The notes beneath the pieces were generated by a model. It saw only the letters and a program-made list of their open reading frames with translations. It did not search any database and was not told the origin of the DNA. Both the position numbers and the translations under genes were made by a program. From the IMG/VR virus record IMGVR_UViG_3300032242_002878, positions 1-49,411 of that record: a stretch of 49,411 bases of DNA. One strand, written 5' to 3'. Below, one piece after another: positions 8,210 through 43,034 of this stretch; within the stretch, counting starts at the first letter, position 1; every line of letters starts with the position of its first letter. The DNA is from a virus.

Positions 8210-9640
8210 TTACATTAGGTTATTTACGATCATACGGCGATAGTAACGGTTAGTATTGATAGCAAGTTCACCAGCGCCTCTTAGTGGCTGATAAGAAGGA
8301 TTCATTTCAGCGAATGGATTGGCTACCATGCCGTAACGAGTCTTAAAGCCGATCTTTGGCTGGAAGGACTGCTGATCAACTGCACGAACCATCTGAAGTG
8401 GTACGTATGGGCAATAGAACAAGCCAGCGTCGAATGCTGAAGAACCCTTATAACCAACAGTTAGGTAGTTGCCACCGATTGCGTATGGATCGATGTAAAC
8501 CTTTAGACGACCATTAAGAACACCAGCGAAAGTGTTACCAGTGTCATCTACCTGAAGATTGTTTGAGTTAAGAGCTGGAGTATAATCAAGAACACCTGCC
8601 ATCTGAAGTGCAGAAGCAACGTCAGAAGAACAAATTACTAGATTACCCTTACCACGACGAGTCTGACGGGCAATTGCGTTAGCTTCTCTTTCAAGCTGGA
8701 ACATAAGACCCTTGAACTTTTCAACTGACCAACGACCGTTTGAGTCGGTGTCAAGGTCGAAGATACCAGCAGTAGTGGTATTGTCCTGAGCGCCAGGAAC
8801 AGCAGTGATGTTGATAGTACGAACTACTTCACGATTAATTTCTGCAAGAATTTCAGCAGAAAGAATGTTAGCAAGTTCTGTTTCAGCATCAAGACCATGG
8901 ATTGCCTTTAGATCCTGGGCAAGTTCCATAGTGTATTCTGCCTTTAGAGCACGTGACTTAGCAGTAACAGTTACCTTTTCGATTGAGAAGGCCATCTGGT
9001 TGAAGTCATTAGCGCCAGAAGTATTGGAGCCAAGAATTTCAGCCTGAGCTGTTGTCATACCAGTACCAGTGTTATAGGTATTAGTAGCAGTAAGGTTTGT
9101 AGTATTTGAGTTGCCTGGGAAAGTACCCTTGTTAGCAGTGAATGCTACGTTGGCATCTGAAATAGTCTGAAGTGAAGAGAACGCTGTATTAACTTCCTGA
9201 TAGAAAGTTTCGTTAGTTACAGCAGCACCCTGAGCACCACCAGCGCCATTTGACTGAAGACCCTGGTTAGCGTACATTGAACGCATTGCGAAAATAAGTC
9301 CAGTAGGACCAGTCATTGGCTGAACGCCGCAGATATCATAAGCAATAAGGTTAGGCATTGCACGACGTACAAGAGAAATCAATACTGGATCGAAAGTATC
9401 AATACCGCCTGAACCAGCAGTTGAGCTTGAAGAGCCCATTGCGTTAACTGCACCAGGAGCAATACCTGCTTCTGTTAGAGTCTGGTATGAACCATGAGCA
9501 GATGCTTCACGGAGAGCGTTCTCTGTGTTTTCAAGCATTACTGCAGTTACTGAGCGACGGTGTTGATCCTTAATTGCTCCAAGAGCGTCATGATCGAGCA
9601 CAGGTGCCCACTTATTTTGAATTGCCTCAGCTAGATACAT
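8210..9640 (-). CDS. 23: gp23 major capsid protein
   Basis: This is the major head subunit, 476 aa against 521 in T4. Recognisable family stretches include LIAYDICGVQPMTGPTGLIF and FAMRSMY in the first third, and the conserved central region on A-domain folding (RQTRRGKGNLVICSSDVA). The N-terminal propeptide ends in LTEAG: a gp21 protease site of the (I/L)xE type would cut after Glu57, comparable to Glu65 in T4 gp23. The gene has its own TATAAATA promoter 34 bases upstream and a UUCG-loop terminator after the stop, consistent with a very abundant monocistronic late transcript. The ATG at 9638-9640 has a GGGAGAC ribosome binding site. Confidence 0.97.
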   Translation of the reverse strand: MYLAEAIQNKWAPVLDHDALGAIKDQHRRSVTAVMLENTENALREASAHGSYQTLTEAGIAPGAVNAMGSSSSTAGSGGIDTFDPVLISLVRRAMPNLIAYDICGVQPMTGPTGLIFAMRSMYANQGLQSNGAGGAQGAAVTNETFYQEVNTAFSSLQTISDANVAFTANKGTFPGNSNTTNLTATNTYNTGTGMTTAQAEILGSNTSGANDFNQMAFSIEKVTVTAKSRALKAEYTMELAQDLKAIHGLDAETELANILSAEILAEINREVVRTINITAVPGAQDNTTTAGIFDLDTDSNGRWSVEKFKGLMFQLEREANAIARQTRRGKGNLVICSSDVASALQMAGVLDYTPALNSNNLQVDDTGNTFAGVLNGRLKVYIDPYAIGGNYLTVGYKGSSAFDAGLFYCPYVPLQMVRAVDQQSFQPKIGFKTRYGMVANPFAEMNPSYQPLRGAGELAINTNRYYRRMIVNNLM

Positions 9641-13578: not shown

Positions 13579-15327
13579 CTATTTATTTTTAGCTAAAATT
13601 AAAGAAGCTGACTTCAATTTAGCTTCATCACTTAATGTTCTATTTTTCTTTTGTTGCAACAAATTATATGTTGATTTTGCTGTTTGCATTTTCTTAACAT
13701 CTTTATCATGTTCAGGATCAACAGCTACATCATCATCCCCTGCAGCTGCAGTTTGATCTATACCTTGATCCATTTGCTGCTGCTGTATATCCATTTGTTG
13801 TTCACCCATTTCATTCTGCTGAATCATTGGATTAATCCAACGTGGGTCATCTGAATTATTTTCTTCTTCGATTTGCTTATCCATCTCTTCAATATCATCA
13901 TCTGACTGCTGAAGAATATTTTTACGAAGCCACTCATGTGAGTAATATCTACCAAGCATATCCTGGAAATTACGTGCAAGATTAATACGGTTGTCAAGAA
14001 TTTCACCATCCTTGAGCTCAGTAAAGTAATTATCCTTAGCAAAGTCAAACTGAATTTCACTTGCGATATTGTTCCAGTCTTCAATAGTCATAATTTGCTT
14101 GAGTACAACCTGCTTTTCTAGCAAATTTAAAAACAACTGAGAGAAACGACCACGAAGGCGATTAATAAAACGACTGAACTTTAATTCGTCACGACTAACT
14201 TCAGTCGCACGACCAAGAGAGAACAACGCATCTGAGTTAAGACGATTGATAGGTACATTAAGAGTTTGAAGCAACTTCTTCTGGAAATAAAGAACGTCGT
14301 CCATTTGACCAAGTGTTTGACCGCCAGGCAAGGTAGTAACCTCCGTACCTTTGCCACCTTCACGACGAGGAAGCCAATAGTCTTCCAACATAGTCATGAA
14401 CTTGCGATCGTCGCGAATAGCACCAGAGTCAGCATCATAAATCAAACGATTTTTATGCTTAACCATGATATCGCGAACATATTGTTCTGCTTTCATCTTA
14501 GGAAGATTACCAACGTCAATATACCAAATACGGCGTTCTGGTGCTCTTGCTAAACGATAGATAACCAATGCGTCTTCAAGAGTACGCAACTGATTCAAAG
14601 CTTTAATAGCCTTATGCATATATGAGAGAACCATAGTTCCCTGAGTGTCTGTCAATCCTGAAGTAACATGAAGAATAGAATCCTTGGCAATACGAAGACC
14701 AGTAGTACTAGGACCAGTAACTTTGTTGCCATAGTTAAATCCTTTATCATTAAAGATAAAATATTCATTTTGAGTTTTTGGAATTATAGACTCACCATGC
14801 TCGCCACCTTTGGCTTTACGCTTGGCAATTTCTCTAATTTTACGGATCTTACGTGGATCAACGTAACGAATTTCTTTAATACCTGCCTTGGTATCTTGAT
14901 CGTCAATAATGACATGGTAATATAAACGACCATCGATATACCAACGACGCATAATTTCATAAGCATGCTTACGGAAATCTAGGATAAGCAAACAATTTTC
15001 AAACTCTTCACGAATTTTTTTCTTGATTGTTTCTGGTACATCATGTAAATTATCTAATTTAATTTCTACTAGATCTTTTTCATCAAGACTAACCATTTCA
15101 TTTACAATTTCGTCAACAGCTGCATCAACTTCTGGTTGAAGAGCCATTTCACGATACTTAGTTACTAATTCGGCTTCTGTTCTTACTGTACCATCAAGAT
15201 CTACATATGTACCAAAACTACCGCCAGCTGCAATGACGACTGCACCGTCTTCTTGCTCTTTTGGAGCGAATGACGGTGCGACATCTAAGTCAACTTTACG
15301 TTTAAATTCGAAACCGAATAATTGCAT
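13579..15327 (-). CDS. 20: gp20 portal protein
   Basis: gp20 forms the dodecameric portal that starts head assembly and through which DNA is packaged. The 582-aa protein (T4: 524) carries typical family stretches: PEVDAAVDEIVNEMV near residue 86, a region with RRWYIDGRLYYHVIID, then YRLARAPERRIWYIDVGNLP and LGRATEVSRDELKFSRFI. The C-terminal part is acidic and Gln/Met-rich (QQQQMDQG), beyond the T4 core. The ATG at 15325-15327 has an AAGGAAA ribosome binding site. No clear late motif is seen just upstream; a terminator hairpin lies between gp19 and this gene. Confidence 0.96.
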   Translation of the reverse strand: MQLFGFEFKRKVDLDVAPSFAPKEQEDGAVVIAAGGSFGTYVDLDGTVRTEAELVTKYREMALQPEVDAAVDEIVNEMVSLDEKDLVEIKLDNLHDVPETIKKKIREEFENCLLILDFRKHAYEIMRRWYIDGRLYYHVIIDDQDTKAGIKEIRYVDPRKIRKIREIAKRKAKGGEHGESIIPKTQNEYFIFNDKGFNYGNKVTGPSTTGLRIAKDSILHVTSGLTDTQGTMVLSYMHKAIKALNQLRTLEDALVIYRLARAPERRIWYIDVGNLPKMKAEQYVRDIMVKHKNRLIYDADSGAIRDDRKFMTMLEDYWLPRREGGKGTEVTTLPGGQTLGQMDDVLYFQKKLLQTLNVPINRLNSDALFSLGRATEVSRDELKFSRFINRLRGRFSQLFLNLLEKQVVLKQIMTIEDWNNIASEIQFDFAKDNYFTELKDGEILDNRINLARNFQDMLGRYYSHEWLRKNILQQSDDDIEEMDKQIEEENNSDDPRWINPMIQQNEMGEQQMDIQQQQMDQGIDQTAAAGDDDVAVDPEHDKDVKKMQTAKSTYNLLQQKKNRTLSDEAKLKSASLILAKNK

Positions 15328-28469: not shown

Positions 28470-31361
28470 TTATGTTGAGAATGGTGATAGATATGCCATC
28501 TTGGTTGAACCAGTATTCGTTATTGAAAACTGATTTGGACCAGCATCATATATTCTATTTGATTGAAGAGTTAACAATACTGTATTTGCAACAGGAAGTA
28601 ATGGTCCTACTGATGGTGTAAAGTTAGCTGTATACATTCCTGTACCCTTGACAACACGAAGGTTTGAGATATATCCATTGAAAAAAGCCAAACTAGTTCT
28701 ATATGCGCCTATATTTAATCCTGTTGTATTAGTATAATTTGTAGCGGTTGAAGTATTAGCGCCAAGCTGAGTGCCATTTATATAAGCTCTAAAAACATTA
28801 CTGTTTCTAGAAAGAGCAACATGCGTCCAAGTATTCAATACAATAGCTGTAGAAAAAAGGTCAGTAGCGCCATCGTTAAATTTTAGAGCATTGTCAGAAG
28901 AATTAAAATATGTACTAAATTCACCTGACCCACCTGATCCTCTAAAGTCAACTAGATTTTGTTGTCCATAAACTTGTGCATAATACCAATATTCAAAAGT
29001 AAAATCTCCAGTACCAAAAGAAAATGCAGCGTTTTGAGGCACATTTAAAATGTTACTTCCAGTAAATTTACCACTATAATTTTTAAGGTTATTTGGCGCA
29101 GCAAATAAATTTGTAGCAACTGCTGGTGCAGCGCCTGTGTTTGTTATTGAAAAATTATTTACTGATGCATCAAACAATTCAGCATATTTACAAGTCAATA
29201 ATGATGTGTTTGTAATAGCTGTTAATGGTGATGTTGTTGGAGTAAATGCACCTGTATAAACAGCTGTGCCCTTAACAATACGAAAGTTTGTAATATAGCC
29301 CGTAAATCTCTGACCTGCAGAAGAATTAGAACCAATATACAATATACCATTTGATGTTGGTGCATTAGCATTTGATGTTGTTGCAGCAGAAGCTCCATCT
29401 ATCCACAATGTGTAGGTATTTCCACTTCTTGTAATAGCAAAATGATGCCAAGCACTTAACGATGCTGTTCCAGCAAGAGTAAAATAATTTGAAGAACCGT
29501 TACCAACTTCAAGAGTCCAAGTTGTACCATTATGATAAAACAAACAAGTAAAGTTACCATAATTAAATACTTGATCAACAGCGTTTGTTGTTGTTGTAGC
29601 AAACGCCCAAAATTCTATTGTGAAATCAGCCGAAAGAGTTATGGCAGCATTAGCAGGAACACTTAAATTTTGAGTGCTACCATTAAAAGCATAAGCATAA
29701 TTATCAAATGGGTTAGCAGTAGAAGCTGGTGCTGTACCAGTATTTGTTATTGTAAAATGATTCGTTGATGCATCAAACAATTCTGGATATTGACAAGTCA
29801 ATAATGATGTATTTGTGATAGCAGATAATGCTGCTGTTGGTGGGGTAAAGTTAGCAGTATAAACTGCTGTACCTTTAACAAGTCTTGCATTAGATATATA
29901 ACCACTTAAATAAGCATATCCTGGACTATCACCAACAGTTCCAATATAACATGGACTTGCTGTTCCAAAATCATTTGTATCAGCATATGTTGATCCAGTT
30001 TGTAATCCATTAATATATAAAGTTGTTGTTCCACTATTTCTAACTAGAGCAATATGATACCATTGTCCAGTACTTAAAGCACTAGAAGAAGAAATTCTTG
30101 CAGTATTTTGAGTTTGATATGTTAATATATTACCAGTGGTAAATATTAATGTTGGTTTAATTTGAGAACCACCACTTCCACTTATTCTTAAATCGAAGAA
30201 AGAAGAAGTTGCCGCTGTGCTATTAAAAAACGCCCAACACTCAAAAGTAAAATTGCCAGTACCAACTCCAAATGCTGCATTAGATGCAACTGTTAAATAC
30301 TGAGAAGTACCATTGAATGACATACTATAATTACCAAATGGATTTTCACCACTGATTAAAGTACCACTATTAGTCAGAGTGAGTGCATTTGTTGAAGCAT
30401 CACTAAGAGTTCCAGATTTACCAGTTAATACTACTGTGTTTGTGATAGCTGTTAATGGTCCTACTGGTGGAGTAAATGCAGCTGTATAGACAGCTGTACC
30501 ATTGACAAATCTAAAATTGCTTATATAACCTTGAGTATCATATCCAGATATACCATTATCTTTTGTACCAAGTCTTGGAGCAGTTGTTCCTGGTGAAATA
30601 GAACCAGAACCATATGCAGGAACATCTAAATCTACAACTCCATTAACGTAAATACGGAGTCCAGCACCAGACCTAACCCAAGCAATATGTGTCCAAGTAT
30701 TTGTTGGTATAGTAGTCGCTCCAGCACTAGCACCTGCATTATAAAATTGAGCTTTACCACCACCACTAATGTTAACTAGCCAAGCAGCTGCCGTTCCACC
30801 AGATACTCTACAATCAAATATACCCCAATCACCAGCTGTTTGATTTATAAGATTCACCCAACATTCAACAGTAAAATCGCCTGTTAAATTATAAAGGCTT
30901 GATGAGGATGGAAGCGAAATATATGTTTTGCTCGTTGTTGGAAACAATATACTATAATTTATTGGTGAAATACTAGTATCTAAAATATTAGCAGAAGATG
31001 TAGATGCCACAATAGTTCCAGAAACAGAACCAGTAAGCAAATTGAATATGAAAGTTTCTGTACCTTCAGTTACAAGATCAGCCAATACTGTTCTTGTAAC
31101 AGTTCCTGTGTTGTTAGTGATCGTTACGCTACCAGATACTACACCATCAGAAAAGTCAGCTGCTGAAGTTGTACCAGTTGTTGTCCAATATAATACCGTT
31201 CCATCAACAATGCCAGTAGTTGTTATTGTAATGGTAATCGTATCGCCTTCGTTATACGAAGCTGCAAGACTCGAAAGGCTATATGTAGCTACTGGTACTG
31301 CATTGATTACATTATAATTTCTAGAGGCAAAATTTTGTCTGGAATACGGTTTAACTGTCAT
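28470..31361 (-). CDS. Calx-beta plus four LamG-like domains adhesin (963 aa)
   Basis: Beginning at the ATG at 31359-31361, a Calx-beta domain occupies about residues 23-130 (ASYNEGDTITITITTTG, SAADFSDGVVSGSVTI, TEGTETFIF). Four concanavalin/LamG-like domains follow, each of about 190-210 residues, with the recurring core SLYNLTGDFTVECWV or FTxEFWxF, a WHHxAxxRxxxxYxLY(I)NG strand and a YISNxRxVKGTAVYTxxFTP ending. Such domains bind sugars or proteins on other surfaces. I prefer this ATG to a GTG at 31391 because it abuts the preceding stop (TAATG) and has a GAGA upstream. This is probably a multivalent host-binding fibre. Confidence 0.85.
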   Translation of the reverse strand: MTVKPYSRQNFASRNYNVINAVPVATYSLSSLAASYNEGDTITITITTTGIVDGTVLYWTTTGTTSAADFSDGVVSGSVTITNNTGTVTRTVLADLVTEGTETFIFNLLTGSVSGTIVASTSSANILDTSISPINYSILFPTTSKTYISLPSSSSLYNLTGDFTVECWVNLINQTAGDWGIFDCRVSGGTAAAWLVNISGGGKAQFYNAGASAGATTIPTNTWTHIAWVRSGAGLRIYVNGVVDLDVPAYGSGSISPGTTAPRLGTKDNGISGYDTQGYISNFRFVNGTAVYTAAFTPPVGPLTAITNTVVLTGKSGTLSDASTNALTLTNSGTLISGENPFGNYSMSFNGTSQYLTVASNAAFGVGTGNFTFECWAFFNSTAATSSFFDLRISGSGGSQIKPTLIFTTGNILTYQTQNTARISSSSALSTGQWYHIALVRNSGTTTLYINGLQTGSTYADTNDFGTASPCYIGTVGDSPGYAYLSGYISNARLVKGTAVYTANFTPPTAALSAITNTSLLTCQYPELFDASTNHFTITNTGTAPASTANPFDNYAYAFNGSTQNLSVPANAAITLSADFTIEFWAFATTTTNAVDQVFNYGNFTCLFYHNGTTWTLEVGNGSSNYFTLAGTASLSAWHHFAITRSGNTYTLWIDGASAATTSNANAPTSNGILYIGSNSSAGQRFTGYITNFRIVKGTAVYTGAFTPTTSPLTAITNTSLLTCKYAELFDASVNNFSITNTGAAPAVATNLFAAPNNLKNYSGKFTGSNILNVPQNAAFSFGTGDFTFEYWYYAQVYGQQNLVDFRGSGGSGEFSTYFNSSDNALKFNDGATDLFSTAIVLNTWTHVALSRNSNVFRAYINGTQLGANTSTATNYTNTTGLNIGAYRTSLAFFNGYISNLRVVKGTGMYTANFTPSVGPLLPVANTVLLTLQSNRIYDAGPNQFSITNTGSTKMAYLSPFST

Positions 31362-31693
31362 TAGGTAATCTCTGATCCAAATAGTGTCCACGTAATAGAA
31401 CTAACAGCACTAGCATAAACGCTAACAACATCTGTAGCTGCCAATGTTATTCCTAACGAAAGAGCAACTGCATCGTTTGCAGCAATTGTAAAATCATATG
31501 CAAGATATTGGTTAGCAGCAAGAACAGCACCAGCTTTGCGAACTGCAATTCTTACTGTTTTTGCTCCTGATGTTCTGTTACAGATATTTAGCGATGAAAT
31601 AACAGCTGATGTACTTGATGGAACCGTATAAAGAGTCTCAAAAGTTGTAGCAGCTGAATCTAATTGTCCTAATATTTTATATGCTGTTGCCAT
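31361..31693 (-). CDS. Small conserved structural protein (110 aa)
   Basis: The 110 residues are Ala/Thr/Val/Ser-rich and beta-stranded: an N-terminal YKILGQLDSAATTFETLYTVP, SSLNICNRTSGAKTVRIAVR, and a C-terminal TLAATDVVSVYASAVSSITW. This family recurs in the fibre clusters of marine phages. A similar beta-sandwich module is often found attached to tail or head decoration. No function is established. The start ATG has GAGGGTAAT upstream, 11 bases after the stop of the 760-aa gene, and the stop overlaps the start of the LamG gene. Confidence 0.75.
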   Translation of the reverse strand: MATAYKILGQLDSAATTFETLYTVPSSTSAVISSLNICNRTSGAKTVRIAVRKAGAVLAANQYLAYDFTIAANDAVALSLGITLAATDVVSVYASAVSSITWTLFGSEIT

Positions 31694-31703
31694 ATTACCC
31701 TCT

Positions 31704-33986
31704 TTATAATCCTAGTAGAAATACTGAAACAAATGTGTCTGATAAGTTAACTGAAGTAGAATTGTTGATAGTCACACTAGTAAATAGTGGTCCGACAGTA
31801 GTAGATGCTGTTGCCGCACCTGTATTGGTAATTGTTAATGGACTATTTGAACCGTCTACAATTGTTGGACCATTACAAGTTAACAATACAGTTTGGTTAG
31901 CAGAAATTGCAGAAATAGCAGTACCAGATGCAGCTTGAACAGCTGTTAATGGACCAATTGGTGTAAAATTGCCAGTATATACCGCAGCACCATTAACTAT
32001 ACGAAAATTTGAAATATAACCTGCAAAAGTAGTACCATAAGCTTCACCAATATAACCAATATTAAATGGTTGTGTAATACTACTCATACTTGCTACTGCA
32101 CCAGTAGTTTTAGAAACACCATTAATGTATAATGCAGTTTGATTGGTGCTAGTTCCTGATCTAACTATTGCAATATGATTCCATGCGTTTATTGTGATGT
32201 TTGAAATGGGAGTTGATAAAGCAGTTCCAGATATACTTCCTGTATCTAAAACTAGATTTGAACCATTTATATAAAAAATAAACTTTGGTATAGTACCACT
32301 ACCGTTATCTGTACCAAAAAAATTAATTAATGAAGCTACAGATGTTGGATAAAACCAACCTTCAACAGTAAAATTGTTTGCTCCAAAATTAATATTAGGA
32401 ACACTTAGATAATTACTGCTGCCGCTAAATTGTACACTGTAAGTAGCTGGTGTTATTGAACTGTAGGTAGTTGCAGTTGTTGCAACCACATCAATTAATG
32501 CTCCAGATGGTGGAGCAACTGCAAATGTTATTGTTGTTCCTGAAGTAACAGTAACGTCTGTACCGTTTCTAAATCTCAAACCATTGACAAACACATCAAT
32601 AGCGCCAGCTGTATATCCACCAGATATTGTGAATACAGTTGTCGATCCATCGCCTGTGAATGATTGTCTTAAAGCTGTAGTTGCTGCAGATGTTGATGAC
32701 CAGTAAACATTGCTGCCATTAGAAGTAAGAACTTGACCAGTTGTACCAACACCACCACTAGCAGTTAATGCACCAGTAATAGCAAGGTTGGATACTGATA
32801 TTGATTGACCATTAGTAAAGCCACCGCCACCAGAAGAAGTGGCCCAATAAGGTGATCCAGTAGCACCATTAGATGTTAATACCTGACCAGCAGTACCAAC
32901 ACCACCATTAGCAGATACTGGTGTTGCAATAGTTAACTGAGTTGTATTGGAAATAAAGCTAGTACCAACAGTGTGAGCAGCAGCATTAATTGTACCAGTA
33001 GAATATACGTTAACAACTGTTGTGTTACCAGTTACAGTGGTATTACCACCAAGATATGTTGTACCATTAACTGATAATCTATCAACTGGAGCGTTGTTAC
33101 CGATACCAATGTTACCACCAAGAGGATTCAAAAGAATCGAATAATAAACAGGCGCACCAGCAGAAGAGTAGCCTGACTGAATCCATTGAGCAGAACTTGT
33201 TTGTTGACCAAAAGCAAGATAGTTACCAGAAGCACCACCAAGAGTGGCATAAGCATTACCAACGAATGCACCAGCTGCTACGTTAGCCTGACCATTTATA
33301 TTGTAAAATGTTGCTGTGTTAGAACTACCAATACTGAAAGCATTGACAGCCATCGATGTAGTATTTAAAGAAACAGCAGCTGCAGTTGTATTTGATAAAG
33401 TAAGTGATGTTGCTGTTAATACTAAGTTGCCACTAGCACTTACAAGAACATCAGCTGTGTTATTACCATATCCATAAACAGTAGTATTGCCTGAATAAAA
33501 ATGAGTAGAGTTAGAATAAGTGTTAACAGTAGAGTTACCAATAGTTAATACGTTACCAACACTCACGTTACCAGAAAATGTAATAGTATTAGAGAATGTT
33601 TGAGTATTGGTCCAAGCATACTGTGCTGCAACGTTAGTTCCAGCTGCAGCAGCTGTCCAATAAACGTTAGAACCAGCACCAGCAGAAGTTAATACTTGCC
33701 CAGCAGTACCAACACCACCATTTGCTGAAATAGTGTTTGTGCTTACAATAGCACCAGAAAATGTAATGGTGTTAGAAAATGTTTGAGTATTGGTCCAAGT
33801 GTATTGAGCAGCAGTATTAGTTGCACCACCTAATGGTGAACCACTAACATAAACAGAAGATGAATTGATAACAACGTTTACTGATGAATTACCAACAACT
33901 AATGCATTAGTAATTGTAGAAGTATTTGCTGCCGTGTTGACAGTCAATACCTGACCAAGTAAACCTATGTTTTGATTCTGTGCCAT
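31704..33986 (-). CDS. Fibre-shaft plus LamG-like adhesin (760 aa)
   Basis: The N-terminal part (to about residue 440) contains fibre repeats with GVGTAGQVLTS(N/A)G endings, NSTVN and NTTVTGN segments, and stretches with QYTWTNTQTFSNTITF. Next comes an approximately 65-residue module, FTGDGSTTVFTISGGYTAGA to AVAPPSGALIDVV, that is almost copied in two other genes here. The C-terminal third (about 520-745) is a LamG-like domain: FGANNFTVEGWFYP, NAWNHIAIVRSGTS, YISNFRIVNGAAVYTGNFTP. The gene has an AATAAATA motif just upstream. It is likely a structural fibre with terminal binding domain. Confidence 0.8.
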   Translation of the reverse strand: MAQNQNIGLLGQVLTVNTAANTSTITNALVVGNSSVNVVINSSSVYVSGSPLGGATNTAAQYTWTNTQTFSNTITFSGAIVSTNTISANGGVGTAGQVLTSAGAGSNVYWTAAAAGTNVAAQYAWTNTQTFSNTITFSGNVSVGNVLTIGNSTVNTYSNSTHFYSGNTTVYGYGNNTADVLVSASGNLVLTATSLTLSNTTAAAVSLNTTSMAVNAFSIGSSNTATFYNINGQANVAAGAFVGNAYATLGGASGNYLAFGQQTSSAQWIQSGYSSAGAPVYYSILLNPLGGNIGIGNNAPVDRLSVNGTTYLGGNTTVTGNTTVVNVYSTGTINAAAHTVGTSFISNTTQLTIATPVSANGGVGTAGQVLTSNGATGSPYWATSSGGGGFTNGQSISVSNLAITGALTASGGVGTTGQVLTSNGSNVYWSSTSAATTALRQSFTGDGSTTVFTISGGYTAGAIDVFVNGLRFRNGTDVTVTSGTTITFAVAPPSGALIDVVATTATTYSSITPATYSVQFSGSSNYLSVPNINFGANNFTVEGWFYPTSVASLINFFGTDNGSGTIPKFIFYINGSNLVLDTGSISGTALSTPISNITINAWNHIAIVRSGTSTNQTALYINGVSKTTGAVASMSSITQPFNIGYIGEAYGTTFAGYISNFRIVNGAAVYTGNFTPIGPLTAVQAASGTAISAISANQTVLLTCNGPTIVDGSNSPLTITNTGAATASTTVGPLFTSVTINNSTSVNLSDTFVSVFLLGL

Positions 33987-34035: not shown

Positions 34036-34043
34036 TATTTATT
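34036..34043 (-). promoter_or_regulatory. Second AATAAATA motif before the relic
   Basis: AATAAATA on the minus strand overlaps the subtilase stop. It would transcribe the relic and then the 760-aa fibre gene, 50 bases before its ATG. The surrounding CTGTATATTTATTAA on the plus strand is shared with the promoter at 37268-37275. Confidence 0.5.
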
Positions 34044-35802
34044 AACGTAATCTCATACCAGTACGAGGATATAAAATACCAGAACTTGGCCTATATAGAT
34101 AATTTTGTTTAGGATACATTTCTCCACTAGTGGGTTTTTCCTGTGGAAAATAAAGATAATTATTTACTGAACCTTGTAAACTAAACGTATCAGAAGTCCA
34201 TGACGGACTTGTTCCACCTGTATCAGATAATTGAGAAGTTTTCGCATAACTTTTTATATATGCCATCGCCTGCGCAGGAGTCATATGTGGATAAATTTCT
34301 AATAGACAAGCAAGTACTCCGCATACCTGTGGCGCTGCCATACTAGTTCCAATATCTCTACCTAAATAATAACTGCTATTTCTACTATCCGTTACACTGG
34401 TTCCCCCAAAATCTGCGTTTACAGTTGCTAAAGAACTTACAATCCAAGTTCCTGGCGCATAAACATCAACTCTTGGACCAGTACTGCTATAATATGCTTT
34501 TCTTTCAGATGCAATAGCATCAACTGCTCCCACACATATAACACCTGGAACTGCTGATGGCGCAGTTCCTTTATGCTGGTTCCATAGATAAAATGAAGTC
34601 GAAGTTCCATATGCTGCCACAAACCAATTGGCATAATCAGATCCTGTTGGAGTATCAATGAAAAAACTTTCATTTCCCGCTGATGCTACGATTATTATAC
34701 CATCAGCGATAGCAGCTGCTATATCTGCTGCATCAGAAGCAACATAATATGGAACTGTAGTATATACTGTTCCAGAAACTGTACGATTATACATTCCAAC
34801 AGCATTCAATTGCGCTGAAGTAAATGGAGTATAGGGACTAGAACCAAACGGACCAGTAGTAGTTCCTCTTCGATTAGCTTGTACTACTGAATATAACGTT
34901 AAACTAGTAGTAGGGAATGTTAACGCACTGCCATAACTACAATTACAGATAGTAGGATTTTGCCTACCTGTTATTGGATTAATTGGTTTATTTTTATGGA
35001 ATGCTCTAACATAATCCCATACACCAATTCCAAGTCCTTGTTCTCCTAATGGGCCAATTTGATAAATATTGGCATCTCTTGCCCATCCACAAGTATTACC
35101 AGCAACTGTACCTGCAGTATGCGCTCCATGGTTAGCATTAGATATTGTAGCATCCATGGCATAAGAATATGATCCCGTTAACAACGTTGCACCGTCAGTA
35201 TTCAACCCACTGGCTATACTCTGTAACTGATACCAATCATATTGTTGATATCTGCTGCCACCTGTGCCGTCGGCATTTACAGCAAATTCTGGATGATTTG
35301 GTACTCCACAAATTCCATCCATTGAGATAAAATCAACATTTTTACCTGTCGGACCAATGGTAATTGTAGCACTTTGATTTTCAGACGTATATGTAGCAGT
35401 AGTGTATCCTGATGTTGTATACGTATTACTAGTACCCCACCCTGATCTTTGAGCTCCTTCGATGCATCTCAATAATCCCCAATTTCTGTAACTAGCATCC
35501 AGTGTTACATTGGCTGGCGTTTTACTAAAGTTTCCAGTTTGTGTATACGAATTCAATGTTCTACTGGCCAGTATTAATTTAACAGGGTCAACTCCAATGA
35601 CACGAGGATCATTTTTTAAAGCATTGGCTTCTTCTAATGTAAGCATATAATGTGTATTTTGACTCAATGGTCTGCGTAGGTAAACTGGAACGGCTCTATC
35701 TGGGATTGCATCAGTTCCACCAGAAGTTTCTAAGTCATTATATAAAGAATTTAAATCTTCCATAGATTTACAAGTAACAACAAATTCTTCTAATTGACTC
35801 AT
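34042..35802 (-). CDS. Subtilisin-family serine protease (peptidase S8) in the fibre cluster
   Basis: The catalytic set is complete: Asp in SMDGICG (D162, followed by NHPEF as in many subtilases), His in ANHGAHTAGTVAG (H225), oxyanion Asn in SAGNESF (N377), and Ser in GTSMAAPQVCG (S487). The first 80 residues resemble an inhibitor I9-like propeptide (FVVTCKSMEDLNSLYNDLE to DPRVIGVDPVK). There is no signal peptide, so the protein is probably made in the cytoplasm and built into the virion or released at lysis. The last 40 residues are a Tyr/Pro-rich tail. It could cut host surface proteins or process neighbouring fibres. The protease call is firm; location and target are inference. Confidence 0.93.
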   Translation of the reverse strand: MSQLEEFVVTCKSMEDLNSLYNDLETSGGTDAIPDRAVPVYLRRPLSQNTHYMLTLEEANALKNDPRVIGVDPVKLILASRTLNSYTQTGNFSKTPANVTLDASYRNWGLLRCIEGAQRSGWGTSNTYTTSGYTTATYTSENQSATITIGPTGKNVDFISMDGICGVPNHPEFAVNADGTGGSRYQQYDWYQLQSIASGLNTDGATLLTGSYSYAMDATISNANHGAHTAGTVAGNTCGWARDANIYQIGPLGEQGLGIGVWDYVRAFHKNKPINPITGRQNPTICNCSYGSALTFPTTSLTLYSVVQANRRGTTTGPFGSSPYTPFTSAQLNAVGMYNRTVSGTVYTTVPYYVASDAADIAAAIADGIIIVASAGNESFFIDTPTGSDYANWFVAAYGTSTSFYLWNQHKGTAPSAVPGVICVGAVDAIASERKAYYSSTGPRVDVYAPGTWIVSSLATVNADFGGTSVTDSRNSSYYLGRDIGTSMAAPQVCGVLACLLEIYPHMTPAQAMAYIKSYAKTSQLSDTGGTSPSWTSDTFSLQGSVNNYLYFPQEKPTSGEMYPKQNYLYRPSSGILYPRTGMRLR

Positions 35803-35803
35803 T

Positions 35804-37243
35804 TTATAGTTCCATCTGTACCACAGTAAGTGTTACTGTAACTGCTTGAGTGCTGGCATTATAGTTAGTAACTGCCATGTATATATTTGCGCTAGGAGTT
35901 CCATCATTATTAAATCCAAATATACCTGGAGTTATTAACTGTGTTAAATATCCCGTTGTTGTTAATATTTCTGTTATGACACCACTTCCTGGAACTGGAT
36001 CTGTGCCAATAGTTCTAGATGCATCAGATGTTCTAGAAGCACTGTCAGTATATAATCTGACCCACGCTTCACATGATGTTTGTATTTTTAATAATGCGTA
36101 AGATTTATAACCTGTTGCAGTAATATTACCAGTAGCAAGATTTGCCAATGATGCAGTTGTTGCTGATACAGTAGATCTTGCTACTAAACCAGTACCACCT
36201 GAAGATCCGCCTGACCCATTACCTATAGCATCAATTAATGCGCCCGATGGTGGTGCAGAAACAAATACGACAGCTGTACCACTAGTTACTGTTACTTCAG
36301 TACCATTACGAAGCATCACACCATTAAGAAATACGGAAATAGCGTTAGCAGTATATCCACCAGTAACTGTGAATGATGTTGTTGTTCCATCACCAGTAAA
36401 TTGTTGTCTGACAGTTGTTGGTGGAGCTGACCAATATGTATTGCTTGTACCACTAGATGTTAGATAATAACCAGCTGTGCCAGCAGAACCATTAGCAGAT
36501 ACGACACCAGTAATAGCAAGATTCGAAACTGAAATTGATTGACCATTGGTAAATCCGCCACTAGAAGCAGTTGACCAATATGCAGTAGTTCCGTTAGATG
36601 TTAATACCTGACCAGCAGTACCATAAGAACCATTGGCAGAAATGCCAGCTGTTGTTCCAATTACAATGTTAGCGTTATATGTATGAACGCCAGTAATAGT
36701 ATAAGAAGATGAAGTATTAACATATGAAGCAGCTGCAACACCCCCAAGGTAAGATGCATTATTAGCTGTAAGAGTAGCTACGTTAGTTGACAATCCAGCT
36801 GTTGTTTGATAATTAGCTAAGTTACCTGATAGTTGAGTAGTAGAAATAACATTAGCTGCTGGTAATAAACCGATATAATTTGCGCTGTTCGCAGCAAGAG
36901 TTGCTACGTTAGCTGATAATCCAGCAGTTGTTTGATAGTTATTAAGATTTGAAGATAACTGTGCTGTGTTAACATAATTAACAAGATTAGCAGTTAATTG
37001 ATTATTCGATACTACGTTAGCTGCGGAAACAGTTCCTACATAGCTAGTATTATTTGCTGTTAGTGTTGCTACGTTAGCAGATAATCCAGCTGTAGTTTGA
37101 TAACTAGCAGCTGCAACTCCACCAAGATTCAATGCATTATTAGCATCGCCCCAAGTAACGCCAGTAGAATTAGCAACAAGAACTTGTCCTGCTGTTCCAC
37201 CAGTATTAGCTATTTGTTGCGAGAGTATCTTTTGTACAGCCAT
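35804..37243 (-). CDS. Repeat-rich tail fibre protein (479 aa)
   Basis: The N-terminal half consists of the YQTTAGLSANVATLTANN / YVGTVSAANVVSNNQL repeats that also make up much of the 1458-aa fibre, in about three to four copies. It continues with GVHTYNANIVIGTTAG, GTAGQVLTSNGTTAYWS and the FTGDGTTTSFTVTGGYTANA to FVSAPPSGALID module found in two other genes of the window. The C-terminal 120 residues (from VARSTVSATTASLANLATGN) look like a small beta-rich domain with YKSYALLKIQTSCEAWVRLYT, related to conserved phage tail fibre end domains. It starts 2 bases before the subtilase in the transcript, and has an AATAAATA motif upstream. Confidence 0.8.
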   Translation of the reverse strand: MAVQKILSQQIANTGGTAGQVLVANSTGVTWGDANNALNLGGVAAASYQTTAGLSANVATLTANNTSYVGTVSAANVVSNNQLTANLVNYVNTAQLSSNLNNYQTTAGLSANVATLAANSANYIGLLPAANVISTTQLSGNLANYQTTAGLSTNVATLTANNASYLGGVAAASYVNTSSSYTITGVHTYNANIVIGTTAGISANGSYGTAGQVLTSNGTTAYWSTASSGGFTNGQSISVSNLAITGVVSANGSAGTAGYYLTSSGTSNTYWSAPPTTVRQQFTGDGTTTSFTVTGGYTANAISVFLNGVMLRNGTEVTVTSGTAVVFVSAPPSGALIDAIGNGSGGSSGGTGLVARSTVSATTASLANLATGNITATGYKSYALLKIQTSCEAWVRLYTDSASRTSDASRTIGTDPVPGSGVITEILTTTGYLTQLITPGIFGFNNDGTPSANIYMAVTNYNASTQAVTVTLTVVQMEL

Positions 37244-37267: not shown

Positions 37268-37275
37268 TATTTATT
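37268..37275 (-). promoter_or_regulatory. Late promoter motif AATAAATA upstream of 479-aa fibre gene
   Basis: AATAAATA on the minus strand lies 25 bases before the ATG at 37241-37243 in the short gap after the Calx-beta gene. This promoter could drive both the 479-aa fibre and the subtilase, which follows at a distance of one base. Confidence 0.65.
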
Positions 37276-37281
37276 AATTGT

Positions 37282-38658
37282 TTATGGGAAGCTAGTTACT
37301 GTAGGACCATTATAACTAGTGATAGTATAAGCATTCCCAGAAGAATCAGTGGTACTTGAAGATGACTGGCACGCTATAAGTGTTGTACCTGAAGTATATG
37401 GTACTGGAGGATATGGTACACCTCCTGCATAAAATAACCCAACGCCTTTAATTATACGAACACCACTCAATCTACAGTTTGCATAAGATGTAGCGCCAGA
37501 ATATAAGAAGCCGCCTATAACTGTTGCTCTTGCAGTTACTGATTTTGTAATGGTCACATAGCCATTATTTCCAGAACCTGTGTTAGTCGATGTTGTTCCC
37601 CCTTGAACATATTCCTGATAACCATTTACATAAAAGCTACAAACACCAGAATTTCTTGAAAAACAAACATGATACCAATTGTTTATATCGTATCTAGTAT
37701 TTGATGTGATGTATGCTTGAGATGAAGTATCTCTTATCTGCGCCCCAAAATAAACTTGACTGCCAGATACAAAATAAGAAAGGTTAAAATAGTTATTATT
37801 TGTCGCTGCTCCATCACTTGAGTTTGTAACCATAATTTTAGATGCAGCTGATCTAGGATACACCCAACATTCAACAGTAAAATCACCAGTTCCAAAATTA
37901 GAAATAGCAGTACTTGGTGCTAACAAATACTGGTTTGTACCATTAAAATCAACAGCATATGCTGGTGATAATGAAGTATCATTAACAGTAACTGAACCAC
38001 TAGTGGCTAATATTGTTCCACTAGTTGAACCTGAACGTATCGAAGCTGTGAATGTTTCTGCTCCTTCAGTAACACTGTCGGCTGTTGGCGTTACACTGAA
38101 AGCTCCAACATTACTAGTAATAGTAAACGATCCACTGGAAGCTGAAAAATCTGCACTGTTTGTTGTACCATTATTAATTGTCCAGTAATATGTTCCATCT
38201 GTGATACTAGAACCAGTAACATTAAATGTTAAACTGCTTCCTTCGTTTACGCTGCTAGCAGCTGGAGATACACTATATGATGTTGGTGTCACACTTGTAT
38301 CGTTAATAGTAACAGTTGATGTAGCAACTATTGGTCCAGAAGTAGAATCAGCGCGTAAATTAATTATCATAGTTTCTGGACCTTCAGTAGTATTATCAGC
38401 TAATACAGGTCTAGAAATAGTAGCAGTAACTGCAGCTAATCCATCAGTAACAGTGAAACTACCTGAATTTACACCATCAGTAAAGTCAGCTGTCGACGAT
38501 GTACCATCATTAGTCCAGTATAATGTTGTACCGTTTGTCAAACCTGTGGTTCTGACAGTAAATGTTACTGTTCCTCCTTCATTTACTGAAGATGAACTAG
38601 GAGTAATACTATATGATTTTACTGAAGTAGAACTGGCAATTAAAAGATTAGGTTTCAT
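37282..38658 (-). CDS. Two Calx-beta domains plus LamG-like adhesin (458 aa)
   Basis: After a short leader, two Calx-beta-like domains follow (about 15-130 and 132-230): SSVNEGGTVTFTVRTTGL, STADFTDGVNSGSFTV, TTEGPETMIINL; and SSVNEGSSLTFNVTGSS, SADFSASSGSFTI, TEGAETFTASI. Each ends in a VxxNDTS strand. The C-terminal 220 residues form a LamG-like domain: SNFGTGDFTVECWVYP, NNWYHVCFSRNSGVCSFYVNG, LSGVRIIKGVGLFYAGG. The start ATG overlaps the stop of the 1458-aa gene. Calx-beta linkers with a terminal lectin-like domain suggest an extended, calcium-stiffened binding arm; calcium use is inference from the family. Confidence 0.85.
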   Translation of the reverse strand: MKPNLLIASSTSVKSYSITPSSSSVNEGGTVTFTVRTTGLTNGTTLYWTNDGTSSTADFTDGVNSGSFTVTDGLAAVTATISRPVLADNTTEGPETMIINLRADSTSGPIVATSTVTINDTSVTPTSYSVSPAASSVNEGSSLTFNVTGSSITDGTYYWTINNGTTNSADFSASSGSFTITSNVGAFSVTPTADSVTEGAETFTASIRSGSTSGTILATSGSVTVNDTSLSPAYAVDFNGTNQYLLAPSTAISNFGTGDFTVECWVYPRSAASKIMVTNSSDGAATNNNYFNLSYFVSGSQVYFGAQIRDTSSQAYITSNTRYDINNWYHVCFSRNSGVCSFYVNGYQEYVQGGTTSTNTGSGNNGYVTITKSVTARATVIGGFLYSGATSYANCRLSGVRIIKGVGLFYAGGVPYPPVPYTSGTTLIACQSSSSTTDSSGNAYTITSYNGPTVTSFP

Positions 38659-41600
38659 TATGACACACCTGGACCGCTAATTGTAAACGTATCAGTACCA
38701 ACAGATATGATTGTGGCTAATCCGTATGGTCCTAATGTTCTGTTACCAGTAGTTGGAGTAGTTGCTCCAGCAAGATACATTGTAGTTGATGTACCCTGGA
38801 TAATTGTCTGATTCGATGAACTGTTATTAAATACAGTCACGTTCATTCCAGAAGTAAGAACACCAGAAGGAACAGTTATACCACCAGTAGTAATTGAAAC
38901 CATATTACCATTATCAGAAGCTTGCAATGTATAAGCAGATGATTGTGGATATATCGCGATAGTAGAACTACCAGCTCCACCACTAATAAGAGCCACACCT
39001 TCCATACTTCTTGCTTCAACAATAGCACCAGAATAAGGAGCAGTTGTAAATGTTAATGAATTTCCTGTAATTGTATAATGAGTAGTTGGTACCTGTAACA
39101 AACCATTCAACGAAACAATAACATTTCTTTGATTAGCTATTAAATTAGTAAGAGTAAACGTAGTTGTTGTACCATCACCAGTAAATGATTGAGAAGTAGC
39201 ATTAGCAGCTGTTACAGAAGCAGCTGCAGCAGCCCAGTAAGTTGAACTACCATTAGATGTTAATACTTGACCAGCTGTGCCTGTTGATGAATTAGCTGTT
39301 ACAGAGCCAGTAATAACAAGGTTAGCGACTGAAATTGACTGACCATTAGTAAAGCTACCAGCACCAGTTGCAGCCCAGTATGCAGTAGTACCATTAGATG
39401 TCAATACTTGACCAGCAGTACCGAATGAACTATTAACGGAAATACCTGCACTCAAAACAAGATTGGCAGTATGTGTATGAACGCCAGAAATTGTATAAGA
39501 ACCAGTTGAGTTAACATAAGAAGCTGCAGCAACTCCACCAAGGTAAGAAGCGTTGTTGGATGAAAGCGTTGCTACGTTTGAACTTAACCCAGCTGTTGTT
39601 TGATAGTTAGCTAGATTAGCAACTAACTGTGCATTAGATACTACGTTGGCAGCTGGAAGAGTACCAATATAAGAAGAACTATTTGAAGTTAATGAACTAT
39701 TAACATTCAAATTACTTTCAGTTTTACCATTAAGGTAAGTAGCAGAATTGGCAGCAAGAGTAGCTACATTAGATGCTAGACCAGCAGTAGTTTGGAAGCT
39801 AGAAAGATTAGCAGAAATTGTTAATGTTTTAGGGGCAGTATTACTTGTTGTTAGAGTAATATAACTTCCATTAGCAATATTAAGCGTGTCTTCACCAACA
39901 GCTGTAATAGTTGTTTGGCCAGCCACAGTAATATATTTGTATCCTGAACCAAGGCTAACGAATACGTTACCAGACCCCTGATCAGTAACATGTAAACCTG
40001 TAGACTCATCAAAGTTAATACCTGTGACATTAGTTACAGTAGTATTAACTGTACCGCCATTACCATTTGTACTTCTTACAACTAAGTTAGCTGACAAACT
40101 AGACCAGTAAACATTACCAGCCCCATTAGAAGTAAGAACCTGACCAACAGTACCACTATTACCACCAGCAATAATAGATGAATTAACAACAAGATTAGCT
40201 GTGTGAGTATGGATACCTGTTATTGTATAATTACCAGATGTATTAGTATATAAAGCGGCGGCAACTCCACCAAGGTAAGATGCATTGTTCGCAGATAAAG
40301 TCGCTACGTTAGATGACAATCCAGCTGTTGTTTGATAGTTGGCTAGATTAGCAATTAATTGTGCATTAGATACAACATTTGCTGCTGTTACAGTTCCTAC
40401 ATAAGTTGTATTGTTTGCTGTTAAGGTAGCAACATTAGCTGATAAACCAGCTGTCGTTTGATATGATGATAATGAACTTGTTAGCGCATAATTAGCAAGA
40501 TTGGCTGATAGTTGCGCATTAGATACCACGTTAGCAGCAGATACTGTACCAACATACGCTGTGTTGTTTGCAGTAAGGGTAGCTACGTTAGCTGCTAAAC
40601 CAGCTGTTGTTTGATAGTTAGCTAATGTACTGGATGTTGCAAAAGAAGCTAAATTAGCAATCAACTGTGCGTTCGAAACAACATTAGCAGCTGATACTGT
40701 GCCAACATAATTAGTACTGTTAGATGTAAGTGTTGCTACATTAGAAGCTAATCCAGCAGTAGTTTGGTATGATGATAATGAACTTGTTAATGCATAATTA
40801 GCAAGGTTAGAACTCAGCTGAGCATTAGATACAACATTAGCTGCTGATACAGTTCCTACGTAGTTAGTATTATTAGCAGTACCAGTATAGATTGTAGAGT
40901 TAGTTGTTGCATATACAGTAGAGTTACCAGAATAAAATGTATCAGCCTGAATAGTACCAAGAGCAGTTCCAGTAGGATCAGCTAATGCAGCATCTGTTGA
41001 TGTTTTGTAATACGTAAGAAACGTATTAGCTGGATTCATCGCAAGTAGTGCTTGTTTATCAGAGGTATCATAATAATGGAAAGCAGTACCGATTATCTTA
41101 CCATCATTAACAGTCCACGGTGCAAGGTTAGCCTGAGTGTGAAGACTGATAACAGCGTCTTGTACTACTAAACTGTTAGCGCCAACGAACAAACTGTTAG
41201 TAGAAAGAGTTAAGTTTCCAGTAACAGTTAAATTGTTAGAAACAACAACAGCGCCAGTAAATGTAGCTCCACCAAGAGAAGCATAGCCTGCGAGGTTAGC
41301 TGATAGTTGCGCATTCGAAACAACATTTGCTGCTGTCACAGTTCCTACATAAGTAGTATTGTTTGCAGTCATTCCTAATACACGAGTAGCTTCTCCTGCC
41401 AAAGTTCCGTAGTTAGCTAAGTTAGAACTCAGTTGTGCATTCGATACTACGTTAGCAGCTGATACTGTACCAACATATGATGTGTTGTTTGATGTTAAAG
41501 TAGCTACATTAGAAGCTAACCCAGCTGTTGTTTGATAAGCTGACATACCAGAAGTTAATTGGTAGTTAGCTAGGTTAGAACTTAGCTGAGCATTCGATAC

Positions 41601-43034
41601 TACGTTAGCAGCTGATACTGTACCAACATAAGTAGTATTGTTTGCTGTTAACGTAGCAACATTGGCTGACAATCCAGCTGTTGTTTGATAAGCTGTCATA
41701 CCAGAAGTTAATTGGTAGTTAGCTAGGTTTGATGATAATTGTGCATTTGATACAACATTAACAGCAGATACTGTACCAACGTATGATGTATTATTAGAAG
41801 TTAAAGTAGCAACATTAGCTGACAATCCAGCTGTTGTTTGATAGTTAGCTAAGTTTGAGCTTAATTGCGCATTTGATACTACGTTAGCTGCGGATACGGC
41901 GCCAACAAAATTCGTACTATTAGAAGTCATTCCTAATACACGAGTAGCTTCACCAGCGAGAGTACCGTAGTTAGCTAGGTTTGATGATAACTGTGCATTT
42001 GAAACTACGTTAGCTGCGGATACAGTTCCTACGTAGCTAGTGTTATTTGCTGTTAACGTAGCAACATTTGAAGAAAGACCAGCTGATGTTTGATAATTTG
42101 ATAAATTACTTGACAACTGCGAAGTATTGACGTATAATTGAGATGTAACAAATGAAACAGCATTCGAATATGCAGTAGCAGAGTTAGCTGTGATAGCTGT
42201 ATTTACTAATCCAATTTTGGTGTCTACGTAGGTTACTGCGTTTGAATAAGCTGTTGCAGAGTTAGCAGTGATAGCTGTATTAACCAATCCAATTTTAGTA
42301 TCGATATAAGATATAGAATTACTATAAGCAGCTGAAGAATTTGCTACAATAGCTGTATTAACTAATCCAATTTTAGTATCGGTATAAGTTACTGCATTAG
42401 AATACGCAGTAGCAGAGTTAGATGTAATCGCTGTATTTACTACACCGATTCTAGTGTCTGTATATGATACTGAGTTAGTATAAGCAGCTGAAGAATTTGC
42501 TACGATAGCATTATTAACTGTACCGATTCTAGTGTCAGTATAAGAAATAGCAGCACCAGCTTTTTGTGATGCATCAGCTGCAGCTATATTCACAGCGTTA
42601 GTATAAGCAGCTGAAGAGTTAGCAATTATTGCAGTAGCTACTCTTCCACTTATTTGTGTATCAACATAGGATACTGAATTAGAGTAAGCAGTTCCAGACA
42701 TAATTTCTGAATAAGCTCTAAGCGTACCTGCGGTGTTACCATTAAGGTAAGTAGCAGAATTGGCAGCAAGAGTAGCTACGTTAGATGCTAGTCCAGCAGT
42801 AGTTTGATAACCAGTCGCAATAAGCCCACCGAGATATGTGGCATTGTTTGCGTACCAAGCGTTATTTGCTTGTTGTGCAATAGCATAAATTAGATTAGTC
42901 CAAGGAGTAATACCATCACCGATTTTATAATAACTGGTATCTATTTCTAATCCAAGTTCGCCTTGTGCTAGTGTAGTGTTCGCAGAAGCCCATTGGGCAG
43001 CTGTTCCTCTGCGAAATTGAATTTGAATTGCCAT
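38658..43034 (-). CDS. Giant repeat tail fibre with Mtd-like N-terminus (1458 aa)
   Basis: The N-terminus, IQIQFRRGTAAQWASANTTL and AQGELGLEIDTSYYKIGDG, is the domain known from phage tropism determinant and hyaluronidase-type fibre proteins. Two repeat arrays follow. Residues about 110-300 hold seven or so copies of a 25-residue unit, SATAYSNAVTYVDTKIGLVN. About 300-600 and 740-930 hold many copies of a unit of about 40 residues, SSNLANYQTTAGLSANVATL plus TANNTSYVGTVSAANVVSNAQL. Between them is NSLVVQDAVISLHT to a conserved DTSDKQALLAMNP domain. Near the C-terminus lies the FTGDGTTTTFTL module. This is a long trimeric fibre shaft; no catalytic motif is seen. A TATAAATA motif lies 32 bases before the ATG. 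Confidence 0.85.
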   Translation of the reverse strand: MAIQIQFRRGTAAQWASANTTLAQGELGLEIDTSYYKIGDGITPWTNLIYAIAQQANNAWYANNATYLGGLIATGYQTTAGLASNVATLAANSATYLNGNTAGTLRAYSEIMSGTAYSNSVSYVDTQISGRVATAIIANSSAAYTNAVNIAAADASQKAGAAISYTDTRIGTVNNAIVANSSAAYTNSVSYTDTRIGVVNTAITSNSATAYSNAVTYTDTKIGLVNTAIVANSSAAYSNSISYIDTKIGLVNTAITANSATAYSNAVTYVDTKIGLVNTAITANSATAYSNAVSFVTSQLYVNTSQLSSNLSNYQTSAGLSSNVATLTANNTSYVGTVSAANVVSNAQLSSNLANYGTLAGEATRVLGMTSNSTNFVGAVSAANVVSNAQLSSNLANYQTTAGLSANVATLTSNNTSYVGTVSAVNVVSNAQLSSNLANYQLTSGMTAYQTTAGLSANVATLTANNTTYVGTVSAANVVSNAQLSSNLANYQLTSGMSAYQTTAGLASNVATLTSNNTSYVGTVSAANVVSNAQLSSNLANYGTLAGEATRVLGMTANNTTYVGTVTAANVVSNAQLSANLAGYASLGGATFTGAVVVSNNLTVTGNLTLSTNSLFVGANSLVVQDAVISLHTQANLAPWTVNDGKIIGTAFHYYDTSDKQALLAMNPANTFLTYYKTSTDAALADPTGTALGTIQADTFYSGNSTVYATTNSTIYTGTANNTNYVGTVSAANVVSNAQLSSNLANYALTSSLSSYQTTAGLASNVATLTSNSTNYVGTVSAANVVSNAQLIANLASFATSSTLANYQTTAGLAANVATLTANNTAYVGTVSAANVVSNAQLSANLANYALTSSLSSYQTTAGLSANVATLTANNTTYVGTVTAANVVSNAQLIANLANYQTTAGLSSNVATLSANNASYLGGVAAALYTNTSGNYTITGIHTHTANLVVNSSIIAGGNSGTVGQVLTSNGAGNVYWSSLSANLVVRSTNGNGGTVNTTVTNVTGINFDESTGLHVTDQGSGNVFVSLGSGYKYITVAGQTTITAVGEDTLNIANGSYITLTTSNTAPKTLTISANLSSFQTTAGLASNVATLAANSATYLNGKTESNLNVNSSLTSNSSSYIGTLPAANVVSNAQLVANLANYQTTAGLSSNVATLSSNNASYLGGVAAASYVNSTGSYTISGVHTHTANLVLSAGISVNSSFGTAGQVLTSNGTTAYWAATGAGSFTNGQSISVANLVITGSVTANSSTGTAGQVLTSNGSSTYWAAAAASVTAANATSQSFTGDGTTTTFTLTNLIANQRNVIVSLNGLLQVPTTHYTITGNSLTFTTAPYSGAIVEARSMEGVALISGGAGSSTIAIYPQSSAYTLQASDNGNMVSITTGGITVPSGVLTSGMNVTVFNNSSSNQTIIQGTSTTMYLAGATTPTTGNRTLGPYGLATIISVGTDTFTISGPGVS
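40240..42130 (-). repeat. About 120-bp periodic coding repeats in the 1458-aa fibre
   Basis: A unit of about 40 codons (ANYQTTAGLSANVATL, TxNNTxYVGT, VSAANVVSNAQL) recurs roughly ten times, interrupted by one non-repeat domain at about 40880-41290. Copies differ mainly at synonymous sites, with two longer blocks (including GTLAGEATRVLGM) repeated at two to three places. The array could change in number by recombination. Confidence 0.8.
42130..42670 (-). repeat. About 75-bp periodic coding repeats near the fibre N-terminus
   Basis: About seven copies of a 25-codon unit (SATAYSNAV, (T/S)YxDTKIGLVN, TAI(T/V)AN) are arranged in tandem. Pairs of copies share long identical stretches of DNA. The regular helical pattern suggests a coiled-coil or beta-helical shaft section. 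Confidence 0.8.

Follow-up and report, generated by a model that had tools for sequence, protein, structure and literature searches.

A subtilase gene paired with a conserved fibre C-terminal domain in a T4-like phage genome: a two-gene cassette with a putative role at the fibre tip

The 49,411 nt of viral DNA analysed here (IMG/VR record IMGVR_UViG_3300032242_002878, positions 1 to 49,411; hereafter the window) carry a subtilase gene that directly follows a fibre gene, and what is conserved around the protease is its pairing with one C-terminal domain of that fibre, denoted FTD. This conserved unit was missed by the initial annotation. The subtilase itself is not new: it is a member of PHROG 9158, with annotated counterparts in marine cyanophages. 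What is new is the two-gene cassette of FTD and protease. No description of a cassette combining the FTD, a C-terminal tail and interchangeable proteases was found in the literature searched, although subscription papers lay outside its scope and the negative result is therefore not proof of novelty.

The subtilase gene and its predicted fold

The gene and its main features are:

34042–35802, minus strand: subtilase (S8) gene, 586 aa, ATG start, PHROG 9158 family
35563–35802, minus strand: I9-like propeptide domain, residues 1–80 (AF2 topology, weak PF05922 matches in relatives)
35317–35319, minus strand: codon of the catalytic Asp162, invariant in 129/129 sequences
35128–35130, minus strand: codon of the catalytic His225, invariant in 128/128
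34672–34674, minus strand: codon of the oxyanion Asn377, invariant in 124/124
34342–34344, minus strand: codon of the nucleophile Ser487, invariant in 122/122

The ORF is present as first annotated and is found on the minus strand only, the plus strand across 34042–35802 being full of stops. Its product matches the PHROG 9158 profile over its full length (E 1.5e-103, residues 4–583) and the Pfam profile PF00082 with an E of 1.8e-24 (87 bits, cut-off 21.8). The PF00082 match begins at residue 209, so that the Asp region lies outside it; in an alignment with relatives, D162 falls in the conserved motif GKNVDvvivD. All four residues of the predicted set are intact and carry the numbers originally given to them, with the motifs SMDG (D162), NHGAH (H225), ASAGN (N377) and GTSMAAP (S487). 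The order D-H-N-S with its motifs, the profile match and the predicted subtilisin fold are those of a peptidase S8. The counts of invariant residues refer to the distinct homologous sequences collected in which the column is filled (122–129), and dN/dS is 0.07–0.32 in seven pairs of relatives. Invariance of the catalytic residues and this range of dN/dS place the observation beyond chance; the subtilase is under selection as an enzyme and, from its intact D/H/N/S set, is predicted to be catalytically competent. Two subtilase-like proteins coupled to an FTD, L096:4323–6578 (phage S-CAM1) and L261:6398–8454, carry Glu at the position of the catalytic Asp but retain the His, Asn and Ser.

Thirty-nine phage records match the subtilase, all of them marine cyanophages or marine single-cell-derived viruses; in several, the gene already bears the name subtilisin-like serine protease or peptidase. 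The proteases of cyanophages S-H38, S-WAM2, S-CREM1 (42% identity to the window subtilase) and S-RSM4, and T4-GC 292 of P-SSM2, are full-length homologues. The cyanophage PHROG 9158 genes occupy the same position as the gene described here, behind a fibre or hypothetical gene, but the function given in their records is protease only, with no link to a fibre C-terminal domain. In the main text of a study of cyanophage structural proteomics (Sullivan 2010, PMC3037559), the S8 peptidase T4-GC518 is mentioned only as a gene, and there is no usable statement on the subtilase family. The window itself represents a T4-like myovirus by its portal, sheath, capsid, terminase and neck genes. Its portal (13579–15327) is closest to that of Stenotrophomonas phage DLP6 (56%), followed by those of cyanophages near 52%, which leaves the host uncertain.

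An AF2 model built on a 37-sequence alignment (mean pLDDT 82, pTM 0.80) predicts a proteinase K-like fold with an I9-type N-terminus. Prediction of the N-terminal 80 residues had been proposed as a check on the first reading, and the modelled elements (E5-11, H14-24, E40-42, E49-54, H56-62, E68-73; block-mean pLDDT 75–93 across residues 1–80) follow the I9 order, giving a beta-alpha-beta-beta-alpha-beta fold N-terminal to the catalytic domain. At the sequence level, the Pfam I9 profile (PF05922) does not hit the window up to an E of 10, even when this genome alone is searched, and a profile of the N-terminal domain found no PDB propeptide; assignment to I9 by sequence was dropped for these reasons. 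Seven of 16 relatives give weak, partial, below-cut-off matches to the Pfam profile at the same ~20 positions, nearly always profile positions 55–77, and in two records with coordinates converted by hand (G003 and G004) the match corresponds to subtilase residues ~53–73. Since sequence profiles miss the window, the description of the first 80 residues as I9-like rests on the predicted topology and on these weak matches in relatives.

Foldseek searches with the whole model returned proteinase K-like enzymes (E 2.5e-16, TM to target up to 0.85), with PCSK9 among the structural neighbours. Proforms such as 3afg and 3whi were also returned, with 569–577 columns aligned at an rmsd of 17–19 Å; a full-length fit of this kind supports the fold and not a propeptide that covers the active site. 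Proteinase K and subtilisin (MEROPS S8 with an I9 propeptide) share with the window protein the D-H-N-S order, the fold and the I9-like N-terminal topology. The window protein differs from them in its long insertions, an extra linker (residues 81–107) and a C-terminal YPR tail, and is the product of a phage late gene; inspection of the N-terminus (MSQLEEFVVT...) bears out the original remark that no signal peptide is visible.

The fibre gene and its conserved C-terminal domain

The features upstream and downstream of the subtilase gene are:

35804–37243, minus strand: coupled fibre gene, 479 aa, stop TAA at 35804–35806
35807–36193, minus strand: FTD, C-terminal ~125-aa beta-sandwich of the coupled fibre (12 invariant columns, AF2)
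37268–37273, minus strand: TAAATA, late-promoter-like, 30 nt upstream of the coupled fibre gene (consensus match only)
34036–34041, minus strand: TAAATA immediately behind the stop codon of the subtilase and ahead of the next fibre gene, 31704–33986 (consensus match only)

A single base separates the fibre stop codon from the subtilase ATG at 35800–35802. The TAAATA before the coupled fibre gene lies in the same range of spacing as that before the major capsid gene (8210–9640), there is none directly before the subtilase, and further TAAATA motifs precede the next fibre gene. With a TAAATA before the fibre gene and none before the subtilase, fibre and subtilase form one probable late unit on the evidence of an unmapped motif match, and this arrangement, together with the 1-nt gap, agrees with the joint expression with a fibre gene suggested previously. 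Coupling alone was dropped as evidence, given how often stops and starts overlap in the window; what carries weight is the identity of the conserved neighbour.

IMG/VR loci were also selected by the subtilase only, and of the 76 with sufficient sequence upstream, 72 carry a coupled FTD fibre gene in front of the subtilase. In these loci the two genes are mostly separated by a 1-nt gap (50) or overlap by 1 nt (13). The pairing is present in six of eight cultured phages examined; P-SSM2 and S-SCSM1 have a different fibre C-terminal domain at the same coupling. Cultured cyanophages with the pair include S-CREM1, S-H38 and S-WAM2. In a pairwise comparison of 78 cassettes with subtilase identity below 70%, the FTD was homologous in all 3003 pairs (100%), its presence being required for inclusion (the 72 of 76 loci represent the selection without this requirement), and the subtilase in 2904 of 3003 (97%), whereas the non-FTD part of the fibre was homologous in 398/2211 pairs (18%) and the gene after the subtilase in 147/2278 (6%). 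Because the rest of the fibre and the next gene are so rarely homologous, FTD and protease stand out as the conserved unit. Median identity is 55% for the FTD against 38% for the subtilase, and in 166 of 169 distinct FTD genes the domain lies at the extreme C-terminus. Six fibre genes (L149, L151, L152, L154, L160 and L179) carry two FTD copies, the last of them C-terminal and before the subtilase.

The FTD has 12 invariant columns in 24 sequences and is modelled by AF2 as a beta-sandwich with a pLDDT of 91. Structural comparison with the PDB gave no match at E ≤ 0.001; the best, an archaeal virus turret at 3.8e-3, is not significant, and an identity for the domain was not obtained by this route. 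Searches against viral models returned mainly its own cyanophage relatives, plus more distant matches in other phages. As modelled, the domain would be a generic beta-sandwich.

Genes behind the FTD and the YPR tail

Two FTD-seeded scans and other loci gave a non-redundant set of 169 distinct FTDs, of which 125 precede a subtilase, 36 a member of a family designated ALT and 2 an S53 protease; with each scan limited to its best 80 hits, the shares do not reflect frequencies in the population. Three further FTDs are uncoupled (siphoviruses S-CBS2, S-CRES1 and PSS2) and three are undecided or cut. The bias of the best 80 hits towards the query was checked by a scan seeded with ALT-type FTDs, by the subtilase-only selection and by a scan of cellular genomes, where six independently found FTD loci in genome bins have either a subtilase (3) or an ALT gene (3) behind the fibre.

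ALT proteins are 500–930 aa long, had no Pfam or PDB match, and are coupled to an FTD fibre in L095, L097, L101, L102, L108 and L009. The ALT gene follows the FTD within a few nt in Sf-CH1b, S-BM3, ACG-2014i, AG-345-F15 and S-SCSM1 (ORF231), where the subtilase is absent from that place. Since ALT is not a recognisable protease, the position behind the FTD does not require proteolysis. In two IMG/VR loci (L103:4383–5660 and L233), a kumamolisin-like S53 protease without a propeptide stands directly behind the FTD fibre, and the one tested (L103) matches kumamolisin from the start of the mature enzyme (E 9e-31). These S53 proteins have the same position and tail as the subtilase, but belong to another protease family (kumamolisin/sedolisin) that is absent from the window, and they lack a propeptide. 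A second protease family has been recruited to the same position behind the FTD. On an FTD tree, which is weakly resolved, the type of downstream gene switches 7 times compared to 38.8 times with shuffled labels, suggesting joint inheritance of the cassette in most cases and only infrequent swaps. The window FTD is nearest in this weakly resolved tree to the S53-linked FTD of L103, after its own direct relative.

The window subtilase ends in a short tail:

34045–34092, minus strand: C-terminal tail RPSSGILYPRTGMRLR (YPR tail, putative docking handle)

By a loose pattern, such a PR tail is found in 93 of 113 complete FTD-coupled subtilases and in 14 of 869 other ORFs; a strict pattern gives 79/122 versus 2/689. 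Both S53 proteins (L103, L233) have a tail of the (Y/W)PR type. In ALT cassettes it is found on the gene directly behind ALT, which is mostly small and ends in RRPxxGxxYPR. Occurrence of one tail on otherwise unrelated putative tip proteins suggests a shared handle. The window has the full cassette, with an FTD at the fibre C-terminus, a gene for a putative tip protein within a few nt, and a YPR tail. Tail-less subtilases have other C-terminal modules, some of them cupredoxin-like. The idea that the tail of long tail-less subtilases is carried by the next gene, as in ALT cassettes, was rejected (0/20). In three loci a second subtilase gene without a YPR tail lies downstream of the first cassette (L063:9745–11364, L074:4432–6030 and L076:4646–6265).

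Virion association and possible roles

The GenBank record of phage S-SCSM1 carries virion tags on ORF228, a fusion of subtilase and LamG, and on its coupled partner 227, as well as on the FTD fibre 231, the ALT proteins 232 and 234, and the tail-bearing gene 235. The tag looks experimental and not like a guess from function, since the short tail fibre ORF245 and several hub genes do not bear it. The virion proteome of this phage was reported as 45 proteins identified by mass spectrometry (PMC9602691), whereas 48 tags were counted in the record, and the tag is thus not an exact record of those data. The S-SCSM1 subtilase is only distantly related (about 30% identity) and is part of a fusion, no recognisable FTD was found in its partner 227, and the virion peptide of the fusion could derive from the LamG part. 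The earlier suggestion of a virion-borne enzyme thereby gains a tagged example in one distant relative.

Sugar-cutting enzymes are familiar components of phage fibres; to our knowledge, no class of fibre tips that cut proteins has been established. In T4-type phages, a separate gene (gp38) directly follows the fibre gene gp37 and its product acts at the fibre tip. The cassette resembles that pair in gene order and putative tip role, with a protease as the second gene here and no sequence relation claimed. The favoured explanation, for which the balance of evidence is about even, is that the subtilase is a fibre-docked, propeptide-controlled virion enzyme acting on host-surface proteins. It would be produced alongside one specific fibre, both encoded by a late unit of two genes, fold in the cytoplasm with its I9-like domain and dock on the FTD of that fibre, probably aided by its own YPR tail. 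The mature particle would then carry the enzyme on the fibre tip and, after adsorption, the subtilase would cut host-surface proteins, opening access to a receptor or freeing the particle from unproductive binding. From the data above we infer the docking on the FTD, the tip position, the role of the tail and the host-surface substrate alike. Several points speak against this explanation: ALT, at the same position, is not a recognisable protease; two FTD-coupled relatives have Glu for the catalytic Asp; the FTD is a generic beta-sandwich; the comparison with proforms does not support the canonical propeptide placement; and the S-SCSM1 example is a distant fusion with an inexact tag.

Trimming of the partner fibre or neighbouring adhesins, in the cell or on the assembling particle, by a maturase that then stays or is lost, is an unlikely alternative in view of where the FTD lies. 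Translational coupling to the fibre gene and the lack of a visible signal peptide would suit such an enzyme, and proteases serve virion maturation in phages (PMC7824862). However, the FTD reaches the last residue in 166/169 genes and is the most conserved part of the fibre, making its removal improbable; the non-FTD part, homologous in only 18% of pairs, offers no evident common substrate, and S-SCSM1 virions keep the subtilase fused to LamG domains. The analogy with auto-cleaving chaperones drawn in the initial annotation is not supported in the strict sense: peptidase S74 intramolecular chaperones also place a protease function beside fibres, but the window has no match to the S74 domain at E ≤ 10, and this candidate was rejected.

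Rather doubtful is a tip adhesin with a protease fold, processing itself once, as in PCSK9, and then binding a receptor. A position comparable to that of T4-type gp38 tip proteins, the presence of ALT, not a known enzyme, at the same site, the Asp-to-Glu relatives and the PCSK9 neighbour all speak for it, but the S53 proteins at this position start at the mature domain and have no propeptide to process. A free late enzyme, breaking down phage or host proteins inside the cell or helping lysis and placed beside the fibre gene purely for regulation, would fit the intact catalytic set and the absence of a visible signal peptide. It is the most improbable of these explanations, since it does not explain why a single fibre domain precedes the subtilase in 72 of 76 loci, why the FTD is more conserved than the subtilase, why the tail is shared with S53 and ALT cassettes, or why the S-SCSM1 protein has a virion tag.

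Taken across loci, the cassette suggests that many aquatic phages carry a protein-cutting enzyme on the fibre end. That marine and freshwater T4-like phages have a modular fibre tip (FTD with S8, S53 or ALT) and that proteolysis at the tip is a widespread step of entry is a more tentative proposal, with somewhat less than an even chance of being right. Confirmation of protein-cutting fibre tips would assign a general role to many genes of aquatic phages now labelled 'hypothetical' or merely 'protease', point to host-surface proteins as a barrier to infection, and provide a natural system for exchanging tip proteins on a constant docking domain.

Other fibre-like genes lie near the cassette. 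The protein encoded at 28470–31391 has four LamG (concanavalin-like) repeats, and LamG is also found in the neighbours at 37282–38658 and 31704–33986. A 1458-aa fibre (38658–43034) has an Mtd_N-type N-terminus and many short repeats (YQTTAGLSANVATLTANNTxYVGTVSAANVVS).
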